A stretch of 64,000 bases of DNA from Ruegeria atlantica (GTDB lineage: Bacteria; Pseudomonadota; Alphaproteobacteria; Rhodobacterales; Rhodobacteraceae): the NCBI GenBank assembly GCA_013032095.1, contig WQBJ01000006.1:62001-126000 (forward strand), read 5' to 3'. The notes beneath the pieces are model-generated. The model made no database searches. It saw nothing but the letters and a program-made list of their open reading frames with translations, and had not been told where the DNA came from. The first letter of the stretch is position 1, and every line of letters begins with the position of its first letter. Positions 6,480 to 51,504 of this stretch are shown in pieces. Both the position numbers and the translations under genes were made by a program.

Positions 6480-7364
6480 TCAAACAACGGCATCCGACGC
6501 CAGCCGTTCCTTTAGCCAAGCGCAAAACAGCCCCGCAGCAGCAATCGGATGATCGGCCCCCTGAGCGCTGATCAGGTAATGCGATTGCGCAAAGGGAATC
6601 GCGGGGCCTGCGATTTCAATCGGTGCGCCTTGTTGGATCGCGTTTTTGGCAAAGCGTTCGAGGATCGTCGCATAACCGGCGCCTGCCATAACAAGCTGTA
6701 GCGCGGCCACCGAAGTGTCGACCGAATGGCGCGGCAACTTATCCGGTGGCGCCATGTCGTTGGCTTGAAAATACCGCGCCCAGTTATCCTCGTACCCAAG
6801 GATGTGAATGAGTGCGCCTGTCGTCATGCTGTGCAGGTCCGCTGAGCCGTCACCGGCGCGGCAAACCGGAACCAGTTTTTCGTCGGTCAGCTTTTCGGAC
6901 CGTACTCTGGGCCAGTCGCCATATCCCAGCCGGATCTCCACATCCACATCGCCGGGGGCGACACTGTCATTCCAAATATGCGAGATCAGTCGTACCGGGA
7001 TATCCGGGTGTCGAGCCGAAAAGTCAGGCAGTTCCGCCGCGACCCAATAAGTTGCAGTCGAAATCGCCGCTCGGATCGTCAGGGTCTGGCGCGAAGCAGG
7101 GCCGAACAGGCTGTTGGTGGACAGCGCGATGTCGGCCAATGCACGTCGCACCGTCAGAGAATAGGACTGCCCCAACTCGGTAAGCTCCAGTCGACGCGCG
7201 TTCCGGGTAAACAGTTTTTGCCCCAGTTCTGCCTCAAGCGAGCGGATATGCAGAGAGACGGCAGTCTGCGTCAGGCCAAGCTCACGCGCGGTGGTGGTAA
7301 AGTTCAGATGCCGAGCTGCGGATTCGAAGCTGCGCAACCATGCGGGATTTGGCAGACGGTCCAT
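6480..7364 (-). CDS. LysR-family transcriptional regulator
   Basis: A 294-residue LysR-type regulator with an N-terminal winged helix-turn-helix. The sequence NFTTTARELGLTQTAVSLHIRSLEAELG at residues 21-48 holds the recognition helix; it is followed by the usual LFTR...ELTELG linker and a LysR substrate-binding domain. It resembles the GcvA-like subgroup. It is divergent from the dehydrogenase at 7467 across 102 bases, the classic arrangement for a LysR regulator and its target. The effector is unknown. Confidence 0.9.
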   Translation of the reverse strand: MDRLPNPAWLRSFESAARHLNFTTTARELGLTQTAVSLHIRSLEAELGQKLFTRNARRLELTELGQSYSLTVRRALADIALSTNSLFGPASRQTLTIRAAISTATYWVAAELPDFSARHPDIPVRLISHIWNDSVAPGDVDVEIRLGYGDWPRVRSEKLTDEKLVPVCRAGDGSADLHSMTTGALIHILGYEDNWARYFQANDMAPPDKLPRHSVDTSVAALQLVMAGAGYATILERFAKNAIQQGAPIEIAGPAIPFAQSHYLISAQGADHPIAAAGLFCAWLKERLASDAVV

Positions 7365-42302: not shown

Positions 42303-43016
42303 TCAGGGGCGCGCGTCAGACAAAACCAGCCCTTGAAGCTCCCGGATCAGCTTTCGGGTCATGGCGTCCTCATAGGCTTCAAAACCCAGGGCAACCTCAA
42401 CGAATGCGTCCACACCTAGAATGACCCACGCATTGTAGTAGGCGGACAATTCACCAACCTGAACATAGCGCTTGTCGCCGTGGGTTGGGTCGTCCGCGCC
42501 AATAACCAGTCCGTTGATGGTGATGCCTGAGGCTTGCAAAGCATCCTTGGCTTCACGCGGATGGGTGCCGAGATTGTGTTTGCCATCACCAGATAGATCC
42601 AGCGTGCGTTTCCAACATTCTGATTGCTGTGACAGTAAATCCGCCCCGAATAGCATAGCTGATCCAACGGCGGTGCCCTGCGGCGCTGTGCTGCGCGTTG
42701 TGCTGTTCAAAAGCGCTGCGATGCCTTCAAGGTCATTGGCGGATCGTATGGGCGTCCAGTCCAACAGCAGTCTTTGGTGGCCGGGTTCGCTCCACTCAAA
42801 TATCGCCAGGCGTACTGGTGCGGTTATGTCGGACAGCACCAGTTGAGTGACTTCTGGCTGTTGCAAGGCCGCTGCTAAGCCATCCAATTGCAGACGGTAT
42901 TCGCTGCCGTCTACTGACCCGGACACGTCTATCCCCAGTGCCAGCGCCTGGCGACACTCGGCCGCGACCGAACCTGCAACCATTGAGAGTACTGTCGCCA
43001 GAAGCCGCATCATCAC
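42303..43016 (-). CDS. DUF1194 von Willebrand A-like secreted protein (second copy)
   Basis: Length 237 residues. It has a signal peptide (MMMRLLATVLSMVAGSVAAE) followed directly by a vWA-type domain with the MIDAS motif D-x-S-x-S at residues 30-34 (DVSGS). Later blocks are LAIFEWSEPGHQRLLLDW, GTAVGSAMLFGADLL and TLDLSGDGKHNLG. DUF1194 proteins are predicted periplasmic metal-dependent adhesion or chaperone modules; no activity is known to me. Its ATG overlaps the stop of a paralogue upstream by 4 bases. Confidence 0.85.
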   Translation of the reverse strand: MMMRLLATVLSMVAGSVAAECRQALALGIDVSGSVDGSEYRLQLDGLAAALQQPEVTQLVLSDITAPVRLAIFEWSEPGHQRLLLDWTPIRSANDLEGIAALLNSTTRSTAPQGTAVGSAMLFGADLLSQQSECWKRTLDLSGDGKHNLGTHPREAKDALQASGITINGLVIGADDPTHGDKRYVQVGELSAYYNAWVILGVDAFVEVALGFEAYEDAMTRKLIRELQGLVLSDARP

Positions 43017-43714
43017 TGAACGTCCTCTGGAAGCGAACCGATTTGCAAGCTGGTTAGCTCTCGTTCCAGTTTGCGCCGCATTGCGCGTTCGAAGTCCTTA
43101 AAGCCTTGTGCGACTTCTAGAAACGCGCCAGGGCCGTGGAGAACGTTGTTTTCGAAGAAGGGGATCAGGTACAGTTCACCCTCGAAATCGGCGGCATTGA
43201 TGACCAGCCCGTTGACCACGATGTCCTGAAAGGGGAAGTGCCGGTATGCGGACTCAGGTCCATATCCGTCATTGTTCGTTCCATCCCCGGACAGATCGAT
43301 GGTTTGGAACAGACAGGATGGCGCCTGCTGCATCAGCTTCGACCCAAAGGCGAGCGCGTGGCCCATAGCCGTTGCAGACCCTCTGTCGGACCGGATCGAG
43401 TGCTGCACTGCCGACGACGCTGCAAGCAGGTCGGATCGCGTGCGGATCATCGTCCAATTCAGAATGATGCGCTGAGAGGAGCGGCCGCTCCATTCGTACA
43501 CGGCCAGGGCTACGGGCATTGGCGAAGAGAAGAACGCCTCGGCCACGTCGGGCGCGGACAACGCAGCGGCCAGTCCTTGCCGCTGCAATGCGTCTTCGGT
43601 TCTGTCCACTGAAGTTGAAATGTCCATGGCCAGTGCCAGAGCCAGGCGGCAGGTTTCGGCCCGTAGCGGGCTGGCCATCCCAGCCAACCCCAATGCTGTC
43701 AGCCAGCGGATCAC
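43013..43714 (-). CDS. DUF1194 von Willebrand A-like secreted protein (first copy)
   Basis: A 233-residue paralogue of the following gene: signal peptide (MIRWLTALGLAGMASPLRAE), MIDAS D-x-S-x-S at 31-35 (DISTS), VALAVYEWSGRSSQRIILNW, GSATAMGHALAFGSKLM and TIDLSGDGTNNDG. The two copies share layout throughout but have clearly diverged, which suggests an old tandem duplication with retained roles, perhaps a heterodimer. It is coupled by 4-base overlaps to gloA before and the second copy after. Confidence 0.85.
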   Translation of the reverse strand: MIRWLTALGLAGMASPLRAETCRLALALAMDISTSVDRTEDALQRQGLAAALSAPDVAEAFFSSPMPVALAVYEWSGRSSQRIILNWTMIRTRSDLLAASSAVQHSIRSDRGSATAMGHALAFGSKLMQQAPSCLFQTIDLSGDGTNNDGYGPESAYRHFPFQDIVVNGLVINAADFEGELYLIPFFENNVLHGPGAFLEVAQGFKDFERAMRRKLERELTSLQIGSLPEDVQ

Positions 43715-45879: not shown

Positions 45880-46095
45880 TTCCCGTGTCTCCTTCTACTT
45901 ACACGTTGTCCCACTAAATTGGTGGGGGCAGTGATTGACGCCGCCGCAATGCATCACCGTATCGCCCACACGGTACAGCCCGAATTGCGTGTTTCGTCTT
46001 TTTCAACATTGCACGGTGAAGTAAAAAATCAAGAAATACCGGAACACGCAGGCAAATTTGCCAAAAATTGAACCAGATACAGGAGAACCCCTTAA

Positions 46096-46413
46096 ATGCG
46101 TCTATATGGCTTGAAAGCCTGTGATACATGTCGCAAAGCATTGAAATCACTGACGGATGTCGAATTTGTCGATGTCCGGGCAGACGGCGTGCCGGATTCT
46201 GTGTTGTCACAGGCTTTTGAGGATTTCGGCGGGGCTTTGCTCAACACTCGGTCGACAACCTGGCGTGGATTGGACGAAGCGCAGCGCGCGCAACCTGCGC
46301 TGGAGTTGCTGAAAGAGCACCCCACTTTGATGAAGCGGCCTCTGATCGACCAAAATGGCACGCTGTATCTGGGCTGGACGGCCGAAACGAAGGCAGGGCT
46401 TGGCGTTACGTGA
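46096..46413 (+). CDS. ArsC/Spx-family (YffB-like) protein
   Basis: A 105-residue thioredoxin-fold protein with Cys9 and Cys12 (ACDTCRKAL), the family segments NTRSTTWRGLDEAQR and PTLMKRPLID, and LGWTAE near the end. YffB/ArsC-like proteins are glutathione-dependent reductases of unclear substrate; true arsenate reductase activity is not implied. ATG 46096 follows AGGAGAA. Function beyond redox is unknown. Confidence 0.88.
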   Translation: MRLYGLKACDTCRKALKSLTDVEFVDVRADGVPDSVLSQAFEDFGGALLNTRSTTWRGLDEAQRAQPALELLKEHPTLMKRPLIDQNGTLYLGWTAETKAGLGVT

Positions 46414-46454
46414 GTGGGTGACTATCTCAATTGACGCAAGTTAGAGGGTTTTGA

Positions 46455-46823
46455 ATGCGCAACGCAGCTATGATTTTGGGCGTTATTGCCGGTTTGATCG
46501 GCATGATCGTGGGTTTCTTCGGCTATGGTTATGTCGAGCTGATTGACCGGTTTGGCGAGATCGAAGGACTGGCCGAGCAAGTAGATAATGCTGAAGTCAT
46601 TCAAATAGCCTCGATCATTGCACCTCTGCTGGCGATTGCGGGTGGTGCGATGGCACATTCGCGTGCCTTGGTCGGAGGAATGTTATTGCTGGTCTCAGCA
46701 GCCGGGATGTATTACGCCTTTGGCTTCAACGTATTCACCATGTTCCCGGTAGCGTTTGCGGCCGTGGCAGGCCTCCTTGGGCTGGCCGCGGGTAAACCAG
46801 ACGAGCCCAAGGCGCACTTCTAA
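46455..46823 (+). CDS. small integral membrane protein
   Basis: A 122-residue protein with three to four membrane helices (AAMILGVIAGLIGMIVGFFGYGYVEL uninterrupted as helix 1; IASIIAPLLAIAGGAMA; ALVGGMLLLVSAAGMYYAFG; FPVAFAAVAGLLGLAAG) and an acidic loop between helices 1 and 2. No family recognised with certainty. It is convergent with the DoxX gene of the bufferin-type operon, whose stop lies 1 base away. Confidence 0.65.
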   Translation: MRNAAMILGVIAGLIGMIVGFFGYGYVELIDRFGEIEGLAEQVDNAEVIQIASIIAPLLAIAGGAMAHSRALVGGMLLLVSAAGMYYAFGFNVFTMFPVAFAAVAGLLGLAAGKPDEPKAHF

Positions 46824-46824
46824 T

Positions 46825-47352
46825 TCACTTGATGCGCAGGATGCGGTCCAACGACAGTGGGCCTGCGCCGTTGATTACGATAACCAAAAATAAGAAGCAC
46901 CAAAGCGTCCGATCATCCAGCAAGCTGACGGCGTTGGTAAAGTAGCTGCCCAGCTCAGTGCCGTGCCCATTAACGTCCACGATCGTCTGGACCCAGACAA
47001 AAATGGCCATACCCATGGCAGCTACACGTGACAGCAACCCGACAACGATCATAGCGGGCAGAATAAACTCGGCCCATGTGCCTACCATGGCGATTAGCCA
47101 GTATATGAAACCCAGTTGCGAGCTGTCATAGCTGACGGCTTCCATCGCTTTAGGGAAAATTTGCACATAGGCACCATCGGACGGGGACAAGAACCCAAAG
47201 AAACCGCTGCCCAGTTTGGTCTTGGCCGAGTTCCAGTAATACACCAGCAACGTTGCCGCAAAGACCAGCCGGGCCAGGGTCGGTGTCAACCAGCCGGAGG
47301 TCATTTCCAGCCGTCCCAGGGTGTTGTTGTGCAATGAGATCAGGGCAGTCAT
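46825..47352 (-). CDS. DoxX-family membrane protein of the bufferin operon
   Basis: A 175-residue DoxX protein with four membrane helices (LARLVFAATLLVYYWNSAKTK; GFIYWLIAMVGTWAEFILPAMIVVGLLSR; MAIFVWVQTIV; LWCFLFLVIVING). DoxX proteins end many DUF692/DUF2063 operons and are presumed to handle electrons or quinones in the membrane. Its ATG overlaps the DUF2063 stop by 4 bases, so it is the last gene of the four-gene unit. Confidence 0.88.
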   Translation of the reverse strand: MTALISLHNNTLGRLEMTSGWLTPTLARLVFAATLLVYYWNSAKTKLGSGFFGFLSPSDGAYVQIFPKAMEAVSYDSSQLGFIYWLIAMVGTWAEFILPAMIVVGLLSRVAAMGMAIFVWVQTIVDVNGHGTELGSYFTNAVSLLDDRTLWCFLFLVIVINGAGPLSLDRILRIK

Positions 47353-48110
47353 GTCGCCAGCCTTTCGATAGTCACAGAGGTTATTGCGCCGCCCTGCAAA
47401 AGCAGCGCCAGAGTGGCCCCAAGGTCAAATTCGGGGAATTCAGTTGCGGTTTTTTCAAACGCGCTGCCAATGGTTTGCCCAGCCTGAAGGCCAGCAATCC
47501 AATGTGCGCCGCCGGTGGGCAGCAGTTGCGGTGCGGGATCATAATCTGGTCGGGTAATCAGAACATCTTCGGCACCGGCGGTGGGTTTGGGCGCGCCGTC
47601 TTCGTTGTTGAAACGCCAGATGGAATAGATCGGCCAGTCCGATTGCAACATCTGCATCGACGGGGCCAATCCCAGTCGCGCCTGCATGATATCCTCGGGA
47701 GGAATGGCAAGTGCGTCGGCCGGAGCGGCCTGAGTGTCGGCGGCGTGGTAAGAGCGGCGCAGCGCCAGTTCCAGCCGTGCCACGTCGGGCAGGTAGCCCA
47801 GATGCGAAAGCTGCTCCATTCCGGCCAGAAAGTCGGGGAAGTCTCCTCCGTAAAACATCATCAGGGGTGATGACGGTGGATGCTTGCGCAGGAAAATCCC
47901 TGACAGCCCATCCATGTTCTGGGGGCCAAGCAGTTTGGTGATGACCGGAAAGGCCTGATGCATCGCTTCGGTCAGGGAAACGGCGACGTTGTTGCGGTAC
48001 ACGCTAAACCGACGTCCAGCGGGCTGAGCGTCTGCGTCCAATAACCCCTCGGGGATATCTGCCGTAGGGTCCAGCAGAGCTGTGTGGAAGGTGGTTTGCG
48101 AAACGCTCAT
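47349..48110 (-). CDS. DUF2063 protein, partner of the MNIO enzyme (BufC/HvfC-like)
   Basis: A 253-residue protein whose N-terminal half matches the DUF2063 'putative DNA-binding' domain (FHTALLDPTADIPEGLL, RRFSVYRNNVAVSLTEAMHQAFPVI, KLLGPQNMDGL, FLAGMEQLSHLGYLPDVARLE). In known MNIO systems this partner presents the precursor peptide to the DUF692 enzyme, so a DNA-binding role is unlikely. ATG 48110 overlaps the DUF692 stop by 4 bases. The frame continues upstream without conserved sequence. Confidence 0.87.
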   Translation of the reverse strand: MSVSQTTFHTALLDPTADIPEGLLDADAQPAGRRFSVYRNNVAVSLTEAMHQAFPVITKLLGPQNMDGLSGIFLRKHPPSSPLMMFYGGDFPDFLAGMEQLSHLGYLPDVARLELALRRSYHAADTQAAPADALAIPPEDIMQARLGLAPSMQMLQSDWPIYSIWRFNNEDGAPKPTAGAEDVLITRPDYDPAPQLLPTGGAHWIAGLQAGQTIGSAFEKTATEFPEFDLGATLALLLQGGAITSVTIERLAT

Positions 48111-48964
48111 GCCGGGACGCGGTCCAGAGCCGCTTGTGCGCGGTCGGCCTCGGCCCGCAAAATGGGCCAGTCGGGCACGTCTGTGTCCCATTCAATGAGC
48201 AGCGGCTTCGGTCCCGCTTTATCCAGCACATAATCCAGCAGCGCCCAGACCGGGTCGACAACCTCACGTCCGTGGCTGTCGATCAGCAGCGGGTGGCCGT
48301 GATCGTCCTCATCCTCGTCATGGCCGCCAAGGTGAATCTCGCCTACCTCGTCCAGCGGATAAGCGTCTATATAGCCCCGTGGGGAGAAATCCAGATTGGT
48401 GGCCGAGACAAAAACATTGTTCACATCCAGCAGCAGGCCGCAGCCTGTTCGGCGCGCGATCTCGCGCAGGAAATCTGGTTCGGACCACGTGCTTTCTTCG
48501 AACGCCAGATAGCTGGAGGGGTTTTCCAGCAGCATTTCGCGCCCGACGGTTTCCTGCACCAAATCAATATGCTCGCAAATGCGGGTCAGTGTGGTGTCGG
48601 TATAGGGCAGGGGCAGCAGGTCGTTCAGGAAGTGGCTGTCATGGGTCGACCAAGCAAGATGCTCGGAAAAGCTGGCGGGGTTCAGCCAGCCGACCAGATG
48701 TTTTAGCCGGGCAAGATGGTCAGGGTCCAGCGGGCCTTCGCCGCCGATGGACAAGCCAACACCGTGGACCGAGATCGGGAATTGTTCTGAGAGATGGCGC
48801 AACTGGGCCAACGGACGGCCGCCATCACCCATGTAGTTCTCGGCGTGAATCTCAAGCCAGGAAACTGGGTGCGCATTGTCCAGAATCTGCGCAAAGTGCT
48901 GGGGTTTGTAACCGACGCCCGGTGCGGCTGGCAATTTGTTCGGTCTGGTCGTGTTATCCAACAT
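48107..48964 (-). CDS. DUF692/MNIO multinuclear iron enzyme (BufB/HvfB-like)
   Basis: A 285-residue TIM-barrel enzyme of the DUF692 (MNIO) family. Ligand-bearing motifs are visible in order: GVGYKPQHF, LEIHAENYMG, SVHGVGLSIGG, SEHLAWS, LLENPSSY, LLDVNNVFVSATN and EIHLGGHDEDEDDHG, supplying His, Glu, Asp and Asn ligands for two or three irons. MNIO enzymes such as MbnB and TglH remodel cysteine residues of peptides. The natural substrate is presumably the four-cysteine peptide encoded just upstream. GGGGAG precedes the ATG. Confidence 0.93.
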   Translation of the reverse strand: MLDNTTRPNKLPAAPGVGYKPQHFAQILDNAHPVSWLEIHAENYMGDGGRPLAQLRHLSEQFPISVHGVGLSIGGEGPLDPDHLARLKHLVGWLNPASFSEHLAWSTHDSHFLNDLLPLPYTDTTLTRICEHIDLVQETVGREMLLENPSSYLAFEESTWSEPDFLREIARRTGCGLLLDVNNVFVSATNLDFSPRGYIDAYPLDEVGEIHLGGHDEDEDDHGHPLLIDSHGREVVDPVWALLDYVLDKAGPKPLLIEWDTDVPDWPILRAEADRAQAALDRVPA

Positions 48965-48985
48965 GTGTGTGCTCCCCAGTCACAA

Positions 48986-49017
48986 CGAAGAGGCGGGCGA
49001 TATGGCCCGCCCCTTCG
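48986..49017 (-). repeat. stable hairpin between precursor and enzyme genes
   Basis: A 13-bp stem (48986-48998 with 49005-49017, one G-U pair in the RNA) closes a 6-base loop in the 71-base gap between the precursor-peptide gene and the DUF692 gene. No U run follows, so it likely protects the upstream message or attenuates, giving more precursor than enzyme. Confidence 0.75.
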
Positions 49018-49035
49018 GTTTTCGAAAGCTCGGGC

Positions 49036-49323
49036 TTATGCCGGCAGATCGCGGTCCAGTGGTTCCAGCGAGCCTTTGCGGTTGTCGGGCAGTTCGATAT
49101 CGGCGCAGGTGCCGGCATCGACCAGAGTCCACGCGTTGCCCTGATAGTCTACGGTCGAGGTACCCGCGCAGGTAGTACCGGGGCCAGCGGCACAGTCGTT
49201 CTGACCGGCCAGCGATACGCCATAGCATTTCTCTTTGGCTTGTGCGGTGGCAGTAGTTGCTGCGCCTGAAACGGCAGCTGCGACTGCGCTTGCGATGACC
49301 AGTGTTTTTGCGGTGTTCGACAT
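49036..49323 (-). CDS. bufferin-type (DUF2282) exported precursor peptide
   Basis: A 95-residue peptide: signal sequence of about 29 residues ([18 protein letters not shown]), then a small domain with four cysteines at 33, 44, 52 and 73 ([39 protein letters not shown]). This is the DUF2282/BufA1 layout. In recently described bufferins, cysteines of such peptides are converted by the MNIO enzyme to thiooxazole-type copper ligands; here that is family knowledge applied by homology. AAGGGA precedes the ATG. It is the first gene of the operon. Confidence 0.9.
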
Positions 49324-49496
49324 CTCGGTAATCCCTTTTGATGACTGCGTATGTCTTCTTGTGACAATGACAAAGGTAGTACTTGCGGGGCTGCACTTGA
49401 ATTCACGAGCCCGTGTCTCACAACCCCGTCAGGACATGACATGCCCTCTTGAAGGTTAACAAATTGTTTTTGAAAAGAAAAAGATAAATTGTTTCA

Positions 49497-49522
49497 ATCC
49501 GGCCCCAAAATCGGGGCCGGAT
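49497..49522 (-). terminator. hairpin after thrS
   Basis: ATCCGGCCCC (49497-49506) and GGGGCCGGAT (49513-49522) form a perfect 10-bp stem with a 6-base loop, 24 bases beyond the thrS stop. The downstream sequence is AT-rich but lacks a clean T run, so termination may be partial and could feed the bufferin operon. Confidence 0.65.
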
Positions 49523-49545
49523 TTCCGGCAATTTGGCGCCGAATG

Positions 49546-51504
49546 TTACAGCAGATCGGGAGGGGTGGCCGCCTGCGAAAGCTCTTTTGTTACAACGTCA
49601 AGCGGTTGTACCTGCGTCTGTTTTTCGCCCAGACGCCGGACACTGACGGTGCGCTCCTCGACCTCGCGGTGGCCGACAGCCAGAATGACCGGCACCTTGC
49701 CGACCGAGTGCTCGCGCACTTTGTAGTTGATCTTCTCATTGCGGATGTCGGCCTCGGCACGGACACCAGCGGCTTTGAGCGTCTCGACCACTTCGTTCAC
49801 GTAGTCATCAGCCTCAGAGGTGATCGAGGCGACAACGACCTGACGCGGGGCCAGCCAGAACGGCAGTTTGCCAGCGTGTTCTTCGATCAGGATACCGATG
49901 AAACGTTCGAACGAACCGAGCGTCGCCCGATGCAGCATGAACGGGCGGTGCTTGGCACCGTCGGCACCGATAAAGCTGGCGTCCAGCCGCTCGGGCAGGT
50001 TGGGATCAACCTGCAGAGTGCCGCATTGCCATGTCCGACCGATTGCGTCGGTCAGGGTGAACTCCAATTTGGGGCCGTAGAATGCGCCTTCGCCTTCGAG
50101 CACTTCATAGTCGTACCCGGCGGCCTTACAGGCATCGCCTAGAGCCTTCTCGACCAGATCCCAGCTTTCATCCGAGCCGATCCGCTTTTCCGGGCGGGTG
50201 GACAGCTTGATGGTCCAGTCGTGGAATCCGAGGTCGGCATAGACTTTGGACAGGAAGGCGATGAACTTGGCGGTTTCAGATTCGATCTGATCTTCGGCGC
50301 AGAAGATGTGGCCATCGTCTTGGGTAAAGCCGCGCACCCGCATGATCCCGTGCAGCGCGCCCGAAGGTTCGTAACGCGCGCACGATCCGAACTCGGCCAT
50401 ACGCAGCGGTAGGTCGCGATAGGATTTCAAACCTTGATTGAACACCTGCACGTGGCAGGGACAGTTCATCGGCTTCAGCGCGTTGATCGCCTTTTCGCGG
50501 GCATGTTCCTCGTCCACTTCGACGATGAACATATTTTCCTGGTACTTGTCCCAGTGGCCCGAGGCCTCCCACAGTTTGCGGTCAACGACCTGCGGAGTGT
50601 TGACCTCTACATAGCCGTCGCGTTCCTGCATCCGGCGCATATAGTCCTGCAGGGTGGTGTAGATTTTCCAGCCGTTCGGATGCCAGAAAATCTGGCCCGG
50701 AGCCTCTTCCTGCATGTGGAACAGGTTCATCTCGCGGCCCAGTTTGCGGTGGTCACGCTTGGCGGCCTCTTCCAGCATGTGCAGGTGAGCTTTGAGCTTT
50801 TCCTTGCCGGTGAAAGCCACGCCGTAGATACGCTGCAGCATCGCGCGGTCACTGTCGCCGCGCCAATAAGCGCCGGCGATGGACATCAGTTTGAACGCGT
50901 CACCTGGAACTTGACCGGTGTGCTGCAGGTGCGGTCCGCGGCACAGGTCCTGCCAGTCGCCGTGCCAGTACATGCGCAGCGGCTCGTCGCCGGGAATGGC
51001 TTCGATCAGTTCGACCTTATAGGGCTCGTTGTTCTGGGTGTAGAAATCAATCGCGCGCTGTCGGTCCCAGACCTCGGTGGTCACGGGGTCGCGCTTGTTG
51101 ATGATTTCTTTCATCTTTTTCTCGATCAGGCCGAGATCTTCGGGCGTGAACGGTTCCGCCCGGTCAAAGTCATAGTACCAGCCGTTTTCGATGACGGGTC
51201 CGATGGTGACTTTGGTGTCAGGCCAGATTTCCTGCACCGCACGCGCCATGATATGCGCCAGATCGTGGCGGATCAGCTCATTGGCTTGCTCTTCATCCTT
51301 CATGGTGTGGATGGCGATGTCGGAATCGGATTCGATGGGCCACTGAAGGTCCCAATGCTGGCCGTTTACCGTGGCCGAGATGGCCTTTTTCGCCAGCGAG
51401 GTTGAGATATCGGCAGCCACCTGCGCGGGCGTTACGCCTGCGTCATAAGAACGTGCATTGCCATCAGGAAAGGTGAGTGAGACGGATTTTGCATCCAAGG
51501 CCAT
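49546..51504 (-). CDS. thrS: threonyl-tRNA synthetase
   Basis: A 652-residue class II synthetase. It has the TGS domain (residues 1-65), the editing domain with [15 protein letters not shown] and [10 protein letters not shown], catalytic motifs ([26 protein letters not shown] with a zinc Cys; [33 protein letters not shown]), and the C-terminal anticodon domain. ATG 51504 is used because GAGGAGAG precedes it. It charges tRNA-Thr. It is divergent from the alpha/beta hydrolase at 51698. Confidence 0.97.

Follow-up and report, generated by a model that had tools for sequence, protein, structure and literature searches.

A Buf1-type bufferin operon of Ruegeria atlantica with a conserved tandem-dyad site upstream of bufA

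Bufferin gene clusters have a core of four genes, according to the passages of a published survey on their composition, which also describe DUF2063 proteins as partners of MNIO enzymes in precursor modification and, for bufferins of the Buf1 type, modification of the two central cysteines and a disulphide bond between the outer two (PMC12452194). The modified residues of bufferin 1 are assigned as 5-thiooxazoles in the corresponding passage of PMC12668002. In Caulobacter, the operon CC3254-CC3257 has the gene content and gene order of the locus presented here (DUF2282, DUF692, DUF2063, DoxX), and is described there as controlled by the extracytoplasmic function (ECF) sigma factor SigF together with NrsF (PMC3511200, passages on this operon). 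Our locus lies in a 64,000-nucleotide (nt) stretch of Ruegeria atlantica DNA (contig WQBJ01000006.1), hereafter the window, in which a four-gene Buf1 (DUF2282) bufferin operon runs on the minus strand from 49323 to 46825 (open reading frame (ORF) positions in the window). Directly upstream of its first gene, bufA, we found a promoter-like control region, absent from a preliminary description of this DNA, that contains two adjacent dyads kept in near relatives. We consider it quite probable that this is a Buf1-type operon whose peptide likely buffers periplasmic copper and whose own promoter is activated by an unlinked regulator acting on the tandem dyad. The conserved tandem site is the strongest new claim and is likely bound by a regulator.

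By family assignment, the operon is of ordinary bufferin content. The DUF2282 search, which the preliminary description had named beforehand as the refutation test of its bufferin assignment, matched BufA (PF10048; 87.3 bits, E 6.5e-25, residues 30-78; cut-off 22.4), and BufB scored 370.2 bits against the NCBIfam model NF050167 (MNIO_BufB), over the cut-off of 310, and 342.4 bits against PF05114 (MbnB_TglH_ChrH, MNIO; E 2e-102). The places of the four genes, the length of the peptide and the positions of its cysteines were all as previously described, and the DUF2063 partner was upheld (BufC against PF09836, 81 bits, E 8.1e-23; cut-off 27.2). The other NCBIfam models searched (HvfB, MbnB, ApyH, ChrH, BufA2, HvfC and HvfX) all stayed below their cut-offs, including BufC against HvfC (NF050145; 46 bits vs. 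142) and the DoxX-like protein against HvfX (NF050144; 20.2 bits vs. 80). BufB aligns to PDB entry 3bww at E 5.1e-44; its alignments to MbnB chains are weaker (E 2e-11 to 2.6e-7), and a sequence search returned no solved structure for BufA or BufC. The whole genome holds a single DUF2282 match and a single MNIO match. Inspection by eye points to a Sec signal peptide at the start of BufA, with predicted cleavage after AQA (residue 29), and the mature part has four cysteines in 80 of 80 proteins examined, the window's own counted. Buf1 modification falls on the central cysteines, so that it is expected here at C44 and C52 and not at all four; the earlier proposal that all four are modified conflicts with the published passages on Buf1, in which the outer two form a disulphide (PMC12452194). 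By analogy, the window's BufA would bind copper and carry thiooxazoles.

The upstream site was characterized in relatives returned by a BufB search (best 80 of 568 confirmed matches, named relatives only), among which the closest is from Ruegeria atlantica at 94% identity. A 34-base-pair (bp) matrix was seeded with the window's own site and covered 80 upstream regions, i.e., the window plus 79 of the 80 loci (L104 was incomplete). Scores of at least 27 bits were found in 79 of these 80 training regions, with the consensus TNACR-N4-YGTGA-N-NCACR-N4-YGTGA and the dyads 15 bp apart; the sole exception, L115 (-7), has an extra base between the dyads, and in gapped form it scores 13.4 vs. a maximum of 1.6 in 20 shuffles. 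The strict tandem pattern has one exact match in the 6.14-Mb genome, before bufA, and 11 places with up to two mismatches, vs. 8 for a backward control. When slightly loosened, it matches exactly once in each of 19 genus genomes including the window's, with one match in total for the backward control; outside the family, 12 genomes were covered, of which G275 contains two matches, within or next to genes that have no relation to bufA, and the other 11 none. Across the family, the strict pattern occurs in 99 of 248 genomes, vs. 11 of 248 for the backward control.

Downstream of the site, TANNNT stands at an offset of 24 or 25 nt in 65 of 79 loci, the top single-offset count in 200 shuffles being 8; this pattern was picked after inspection and found by a targeted count, and an expectation-maximization motif search downstream of the site first gave a GTCA-like word, not a -10 element. 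No match to the sigma70 -35/-10 consensus was found in 48900-49700. The computed spacing would place the dyads at about -43 and -58, which may correspond to a class II activator position. Columns 2 and 13 within the first dyad form Watson-Crick pairs in just 7 of 79 regions and the site precedes the -10 box, so we regard the tandem dyad as a DNA site and reject its reading as an RNA hairpin. The features of the locus are collected in Table 1.

Table 1. Positions of operon genes and control elements in the window
Feature	Position	Strand	Remarks
bufA, Buf1 bufferin precursor	49036..49323	-	95 aa; Cys33/44/52/73; C-terminal RDLPA tail
bufB, MNIO bufferin maturase	48107..48964	-	285 aa
bufC, DUF2063 partner protein	47349..48110	-	253 aa; start inside 4-base overlap with bufB
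doxX-like membrane protein gene	46825..47352	-	175 aa; start inside 4-base overlap with bufC
13-bp stem-loop in bufA-bufB spacer	48986..49017	-	predicted leaky attenuator or mRNA stabiliser
12-bp GC-rich hairpin 3' of thrS	49496..49523	-	possible terminator; lacks a canonical T-run immediately downstream
Tandem-dyad site upstream of bufA	49403..49431	-	dyad 1 49431-49418, dyad 2 49416-49403
Predicted -10 box TACCTT	49373..49378	-	starts 24 nt after tandem site

Transcription could instead come mainly from thrS read-through or from a weak constitutive promoter, with the dyads bound by a repressor or by nothing specific, which we judge unlikely. thrS, identified like the cold-shock gene by Pfam domains, lies upstream on the same strand in 79 of the 80 relatives, and bufC and doxX are present in all 80; the same loci contain an ArsC-family gene (74/80), a gene for a 122-amino-acid (aa) protein (64/80) and a cold-shock gene (74/80). 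We also compiled a wider sample of 110 bufA loci, one per family genome, from the 178 of 248 family genomes with DUF2282. It is weighted to high scorers, being made up of the 30 top DUF2282 scorers and 80 genomes in listing order (G039 was taken out of that order for bearing NrsF, and nine genomes were skipped, the window's and others mostly near contig ends), and thrS lies within about 1.5 kb of bufA in 68 of the 110. Proximity of thrS and the missing canonical T-run after the window's post-thrS hairpin thus favour read-through, but a 12-bp hairpin does separate thrS from the site, which even without the T-run makes read-through unlikely. The 76-nt post-thrS region, with two hairpins, folds at -32 kcal/mol (z -4.26), and a terminator scan made no call on the hairpin. 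Further against read-through, the conserved site keeps a constant spacing to a -10-like box, and it scores at least 20 in nine loci without thrS within about 1.5 kb, although thrS is a few kb away in five of them. Since the conserved site and the -10-like box lie between the post-thrS hairpin and bufA, the bufABC-doxX operon probably has its own promoter. The preliminary description had left control to come from elsewhere or from thrS; the former can now be narrowed to a probable own promoter with an upstream tandem dyad, and the latter has become less likely.

Retention of the thrS-bufABC-doxX order makes the neighbourhood ordinary for near relatives. The operon is shorter than first drawn (45900-49323), since 46096-46823 is occupied by two plus-strand genes that lie beside the operon and outside it. 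One encodes an ArsC-family protein (PF03960, 55.5 bits; under NCBIfam cut-offs) and the other the 122-aa protein, for which Pfam and NCBIfam gave no family match; in the 74 and 64 relatives counted above, these two genes likewise flank the operon on the opposite strand. Elsewhere in the window, 42303-43714 on the minus strand encodes two neighbouring DUF1194 proteins (226 bits each).

A sigma factor gene was not seen adjoining the operon, in agreement with the preliminary description, and NrsF (PF06532) had no match in the window's genome (99.99% complete); the Caulobacter vibrioides positive control matched. NrsF occurs in 40 of 248 family genomes at E <= 0.001 and in 35 over the cut-off, and 88 of the 110 sampled loci are from genomes without NrsF over the cut-off (three of the 88 with sub-cut-off hits). 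The context, formerly called unusual, is therefore not so: 79 of the 80 near relatives have these four genes after thrS, and the NrsF-less state is common in the family. A gap-aware tandem score of at least 12 was reached in 75 of the 88 loci without NrsF vs. 1 of the 22 with it (72/88 vs. 1/22 at a threshold of 15; 59/88 vs. 1/22 at 20), and the dyads of the scoring loci are spaced by 15 bp in 71 and by 16 bp in 5. The strict SigF pattern GTAAC-N15-17-CGWA was found in 14 of the 22 NrsF-bearing regions and 1 of the 88 others (shuffles, 0.06 and 0.38), and a looser one in 20 of the 22 (shuffles, 0.6). In these 20 SigF-type loci the best single dyad of the same consensus ends 4-6 nt before GTAA (16/20) or 15-16 nt before it (4/20). 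At class level, 26 of 30 loci were usable, and of these only the window's genome and one family member had tandem scores above 4; the looser SigF pattern occurred in 11, three of which had a dyad above the 99% shuffle point (two at 4 nt, one at 42 nt). The dyad thus looks like a trait of the Rhodobacteraceae and perhaps some kin.

These patterns suggest that an unlinked activator common to both promoter types is likely. That a single Rhodobacteraceae-wide activator recognizes TCACG-N4-CGTGA, with one dimer beside the SigF promoter of SigF-bearing genera and two on the tandem site with a sigma70-like promoter in the NrsF-less majority, is a tentative proposal that we hold with some doubt; if true, the dyad would stay the same from one promoter type to the other while sigma factors are exchanged, and copper buffering in most Roseobacters would answer to a not-yet-named sensor. 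A SigF-type promoter before the window's bufA was looked for and not found, and the tandem dyad stands there instead. We think it very improbable that the operon is controlled by a SigF-like ECF sigma factor whose anti-sigma factor has diverged and escaped recognition. Two Caulobacter bufferin operons are described as under SigF (PMC3511200, in the passages cited), 13 of the 88 NrsF-less loci have tandem scores under 12, and the looser SigF pattern occurs in 16 of the 88 vs. 4.1 in shuffles; however, NrsF is unmatched in a nearly complete genome, the strict pattern is largely confined to NrsF-bearing loci, and GTAACC-N15-17-CGAA is not enriched in the window's genome (26 hits vs. 56 backward), with none near the operon.

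Candidates for the regulator were sought in the wider neighbourhoods of 20 loci, drawn from 23 without a thrS hit within about 1.5 kb: nine had the site, three a weak one and eight none by the ungapped matrix (three of the last, G007, G146 and G093, in fact carry the site with 16-bp spacing). Genes were called by a simple script, and small ones may be missed. A LysR-type regulator lies on the far side of doxX in two of the 20 (L244, L253), and in L254, a single case, a bufA that lacks the site has an Lrp/AsnC regulator (Pfam) upstream. L244 (genome G097) also has a WYL-domain helix-turn-helix regulator (6521-7246; Pfam) between thrS and its site-bearing bufA, which on this single case is a candidate site-binding regulator. 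In genome G007, L160 contains two tandem DUF2282 genes, with a 16-bp-spaced site upstream of the first only.

Nine strict sites in other genomes that seemingly did not precede bufA were examined: two actually do (L291, L294), L287 and L290 fall within likely genes, and L286 is ambiguous. The four remaining contexts precede other genes, namely the methionine sulfoxide reductase gene msrA (L289, genome G191, where the bases are also readable as coding in a longer frame), a YkuD gene (L292), a 464-aa ORF without Pfam match (L288), and, in L293/L295, a set in which a probably exported, Met-rich protein is encoded together with cytochrome b561 and molybdopterin oxidoreductase (Pfam). About four head-to-tail dyad copies are present just upstream of msrA (L289, 1996-2062). 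The first protein of the L295 set (300-2523, genome G154) is Met/Asp-rich, and bufA of the same genome is without the site (score -4.8). The set resembles a methionine-rich hypochlorite scavenger system. We keep it as a lead only, since its cytochrome b561 is rare (8 of 248 genomes, absent from the window's) and among the other seven cytochrome b561 loci only L300 scores over 5 (10.6). An oxidant or metal signal is plausible because Caulobacter SigF is reported to control a YedY gene besides the two bufferin operons (PMC3511200, passages on its targets) and strict sites precede msrA and the L295 set. BufC is a most improbable operator-binding feedback regulator besides being a maturation partner: Pfam labels DUF2063 a putative DNA-binding domain, and the single strict site in 19 of 19 genus genomes suggests a dedicated regulator, for which BufC would be the operon's own candidate, but the survey passages cited above describe DUF2063 proteins as MNIO partners in precursor modification (PMC12452194), and G154 has its strict site before another operon while its bufA scores just -4.8.

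Several observations weigh against an activator acting on the tandem dyad, or against the breadth of the contrast with SigF. Tandem scores of 12 to 16 are no proof, because 2200 shuffles of the same regions have their 99.9% point at 13.0 and their maximum at 16.2; relatives supplied the training set of the matrix, and some test genomes share a species with training loci. The low-scoring NrsF-less loci and the excess of the looser SigF pattern among them count here as well, and in only 15 of 20 loci does the dyad beside the SigF-type promoter score above its own 99% shuffle point. A BufB tree of 110 rows, built by a quick method, needs at least 6 changes in NrsF and 13 in the tandem site; independent pairs number from 2 (starred branches) to 6 (all branches) and the sign test is not significant, so that the contrast between NrsF and the site describes clades and is not independent evidence. 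No regulator recurs beside bufA in the 20 wider neighbourhoods. A search of the window's genome found no second site of the same geometry; single dyads occur at 15 places (backward control, 11), and in none of the 15 does TANNNT stand 24 or 25 nt away to either side. The DoxX assignment is also weak (PF07681, 20.1 bits; under the cut-off of 23.6); all 80 related loci have a homologue of this gene on the operon's strand.

For an operon with its own activated promoter, we envisage the following course. The transcript would begin about 40 nt before bufA, driven from the TANNNT box without a recognisable -35 and aided by a protein that may bind both dyads at the distances computed above, in answer to a putative signal. 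The preliminary description gave all joins as 4-base overlaps, which holds for bufB/bufC and bufC/doxX; between bufA and bufB lies a 71-nt spacer that holds a 13-bp hairpin. This spacer folds at -35.2 kcal/mol (z -4.69; none of 200 shuffles as good), and the 70-nt stretch 3' of bufA ranges from -19.7 to -46.1 kcal/mol in 80 loci (mean -29.1; this set is without a shuffle control). The stem-loop would stop or protect most transcripts after bufA and could thereby serve as a device giving more peptide than enzyme. BufA, made with its Sec signal peptide, would be modified in the cytoplasm by the iron enzyme BufB with BufC as guiding partner, C44 and C52 becoming 5-thiooxazoles, and C33 and C73 would form a disulphide by analogy with the Buf1 literature. 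Mature BufA would then be exported and chelate excess copper, with DoxX in a supporting role. The conserved site opens bufferin control to pull-down or reporter work, which may uncover a new sensor of metals or oxidants in marine bacteria.

A side observation concerns the end of BufA. A terminal RD[LIMR]-type motif (window 49036-49080, minus strand) lies outside the Pfam domain, and all 80 bufA proteins examined have it; it is absent from several bufA proteins of NrsF-bearing genomes. This tail may be a recognition tail for BufB/BufC.

The control region is a variant that we did not find described in passages of the bufferin literature. The main text of PMC12452194 names sigma factors and NrsF and does not contain the words 'promoter', 'operator' or 'Rhodobacter', and a literature search listed no paper joining DUF692 or DUF2282 to a Rhodobacterales operator. 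Among related systems, Buf2 bufferins, oxazolin/HvfA and other captophorins likewise combine an MNIO and a DUF2063-type partner with a Cys peptide and a copper link (PMC12668002, passages on these groups). The window's precursor differs from Buf2 as a DUF2282 four-Cys protein (BufA2 model, 18.5 vs. cut-off 60), and its MNIO differs from HvfB (220.9 bits vs. cut-off 360). With methanobactin MbnB the MNIO superfamily is held in common, but the MbnB model gives 50.9 bits vs. a cut-off of 325. The GIG operon of Legionella and Cupriavidus, whose describing text mentions DUF2282, is metal-responsive and answers to gold and copper (PMC5413113, passages on this operon). The closest likeness is with Buf1 bufferins, which by the survey passages share four conserved cysteines with the window's BufA (PMC12452194), and with the Caulobacter operon. 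For the latter, the cited passages give ECF SigF with NrsF and the promoter GTAACC-N16-CGAA (PMC3511200), whereas the window, without NrsF, has a tandem dyad followed by TANNNT.

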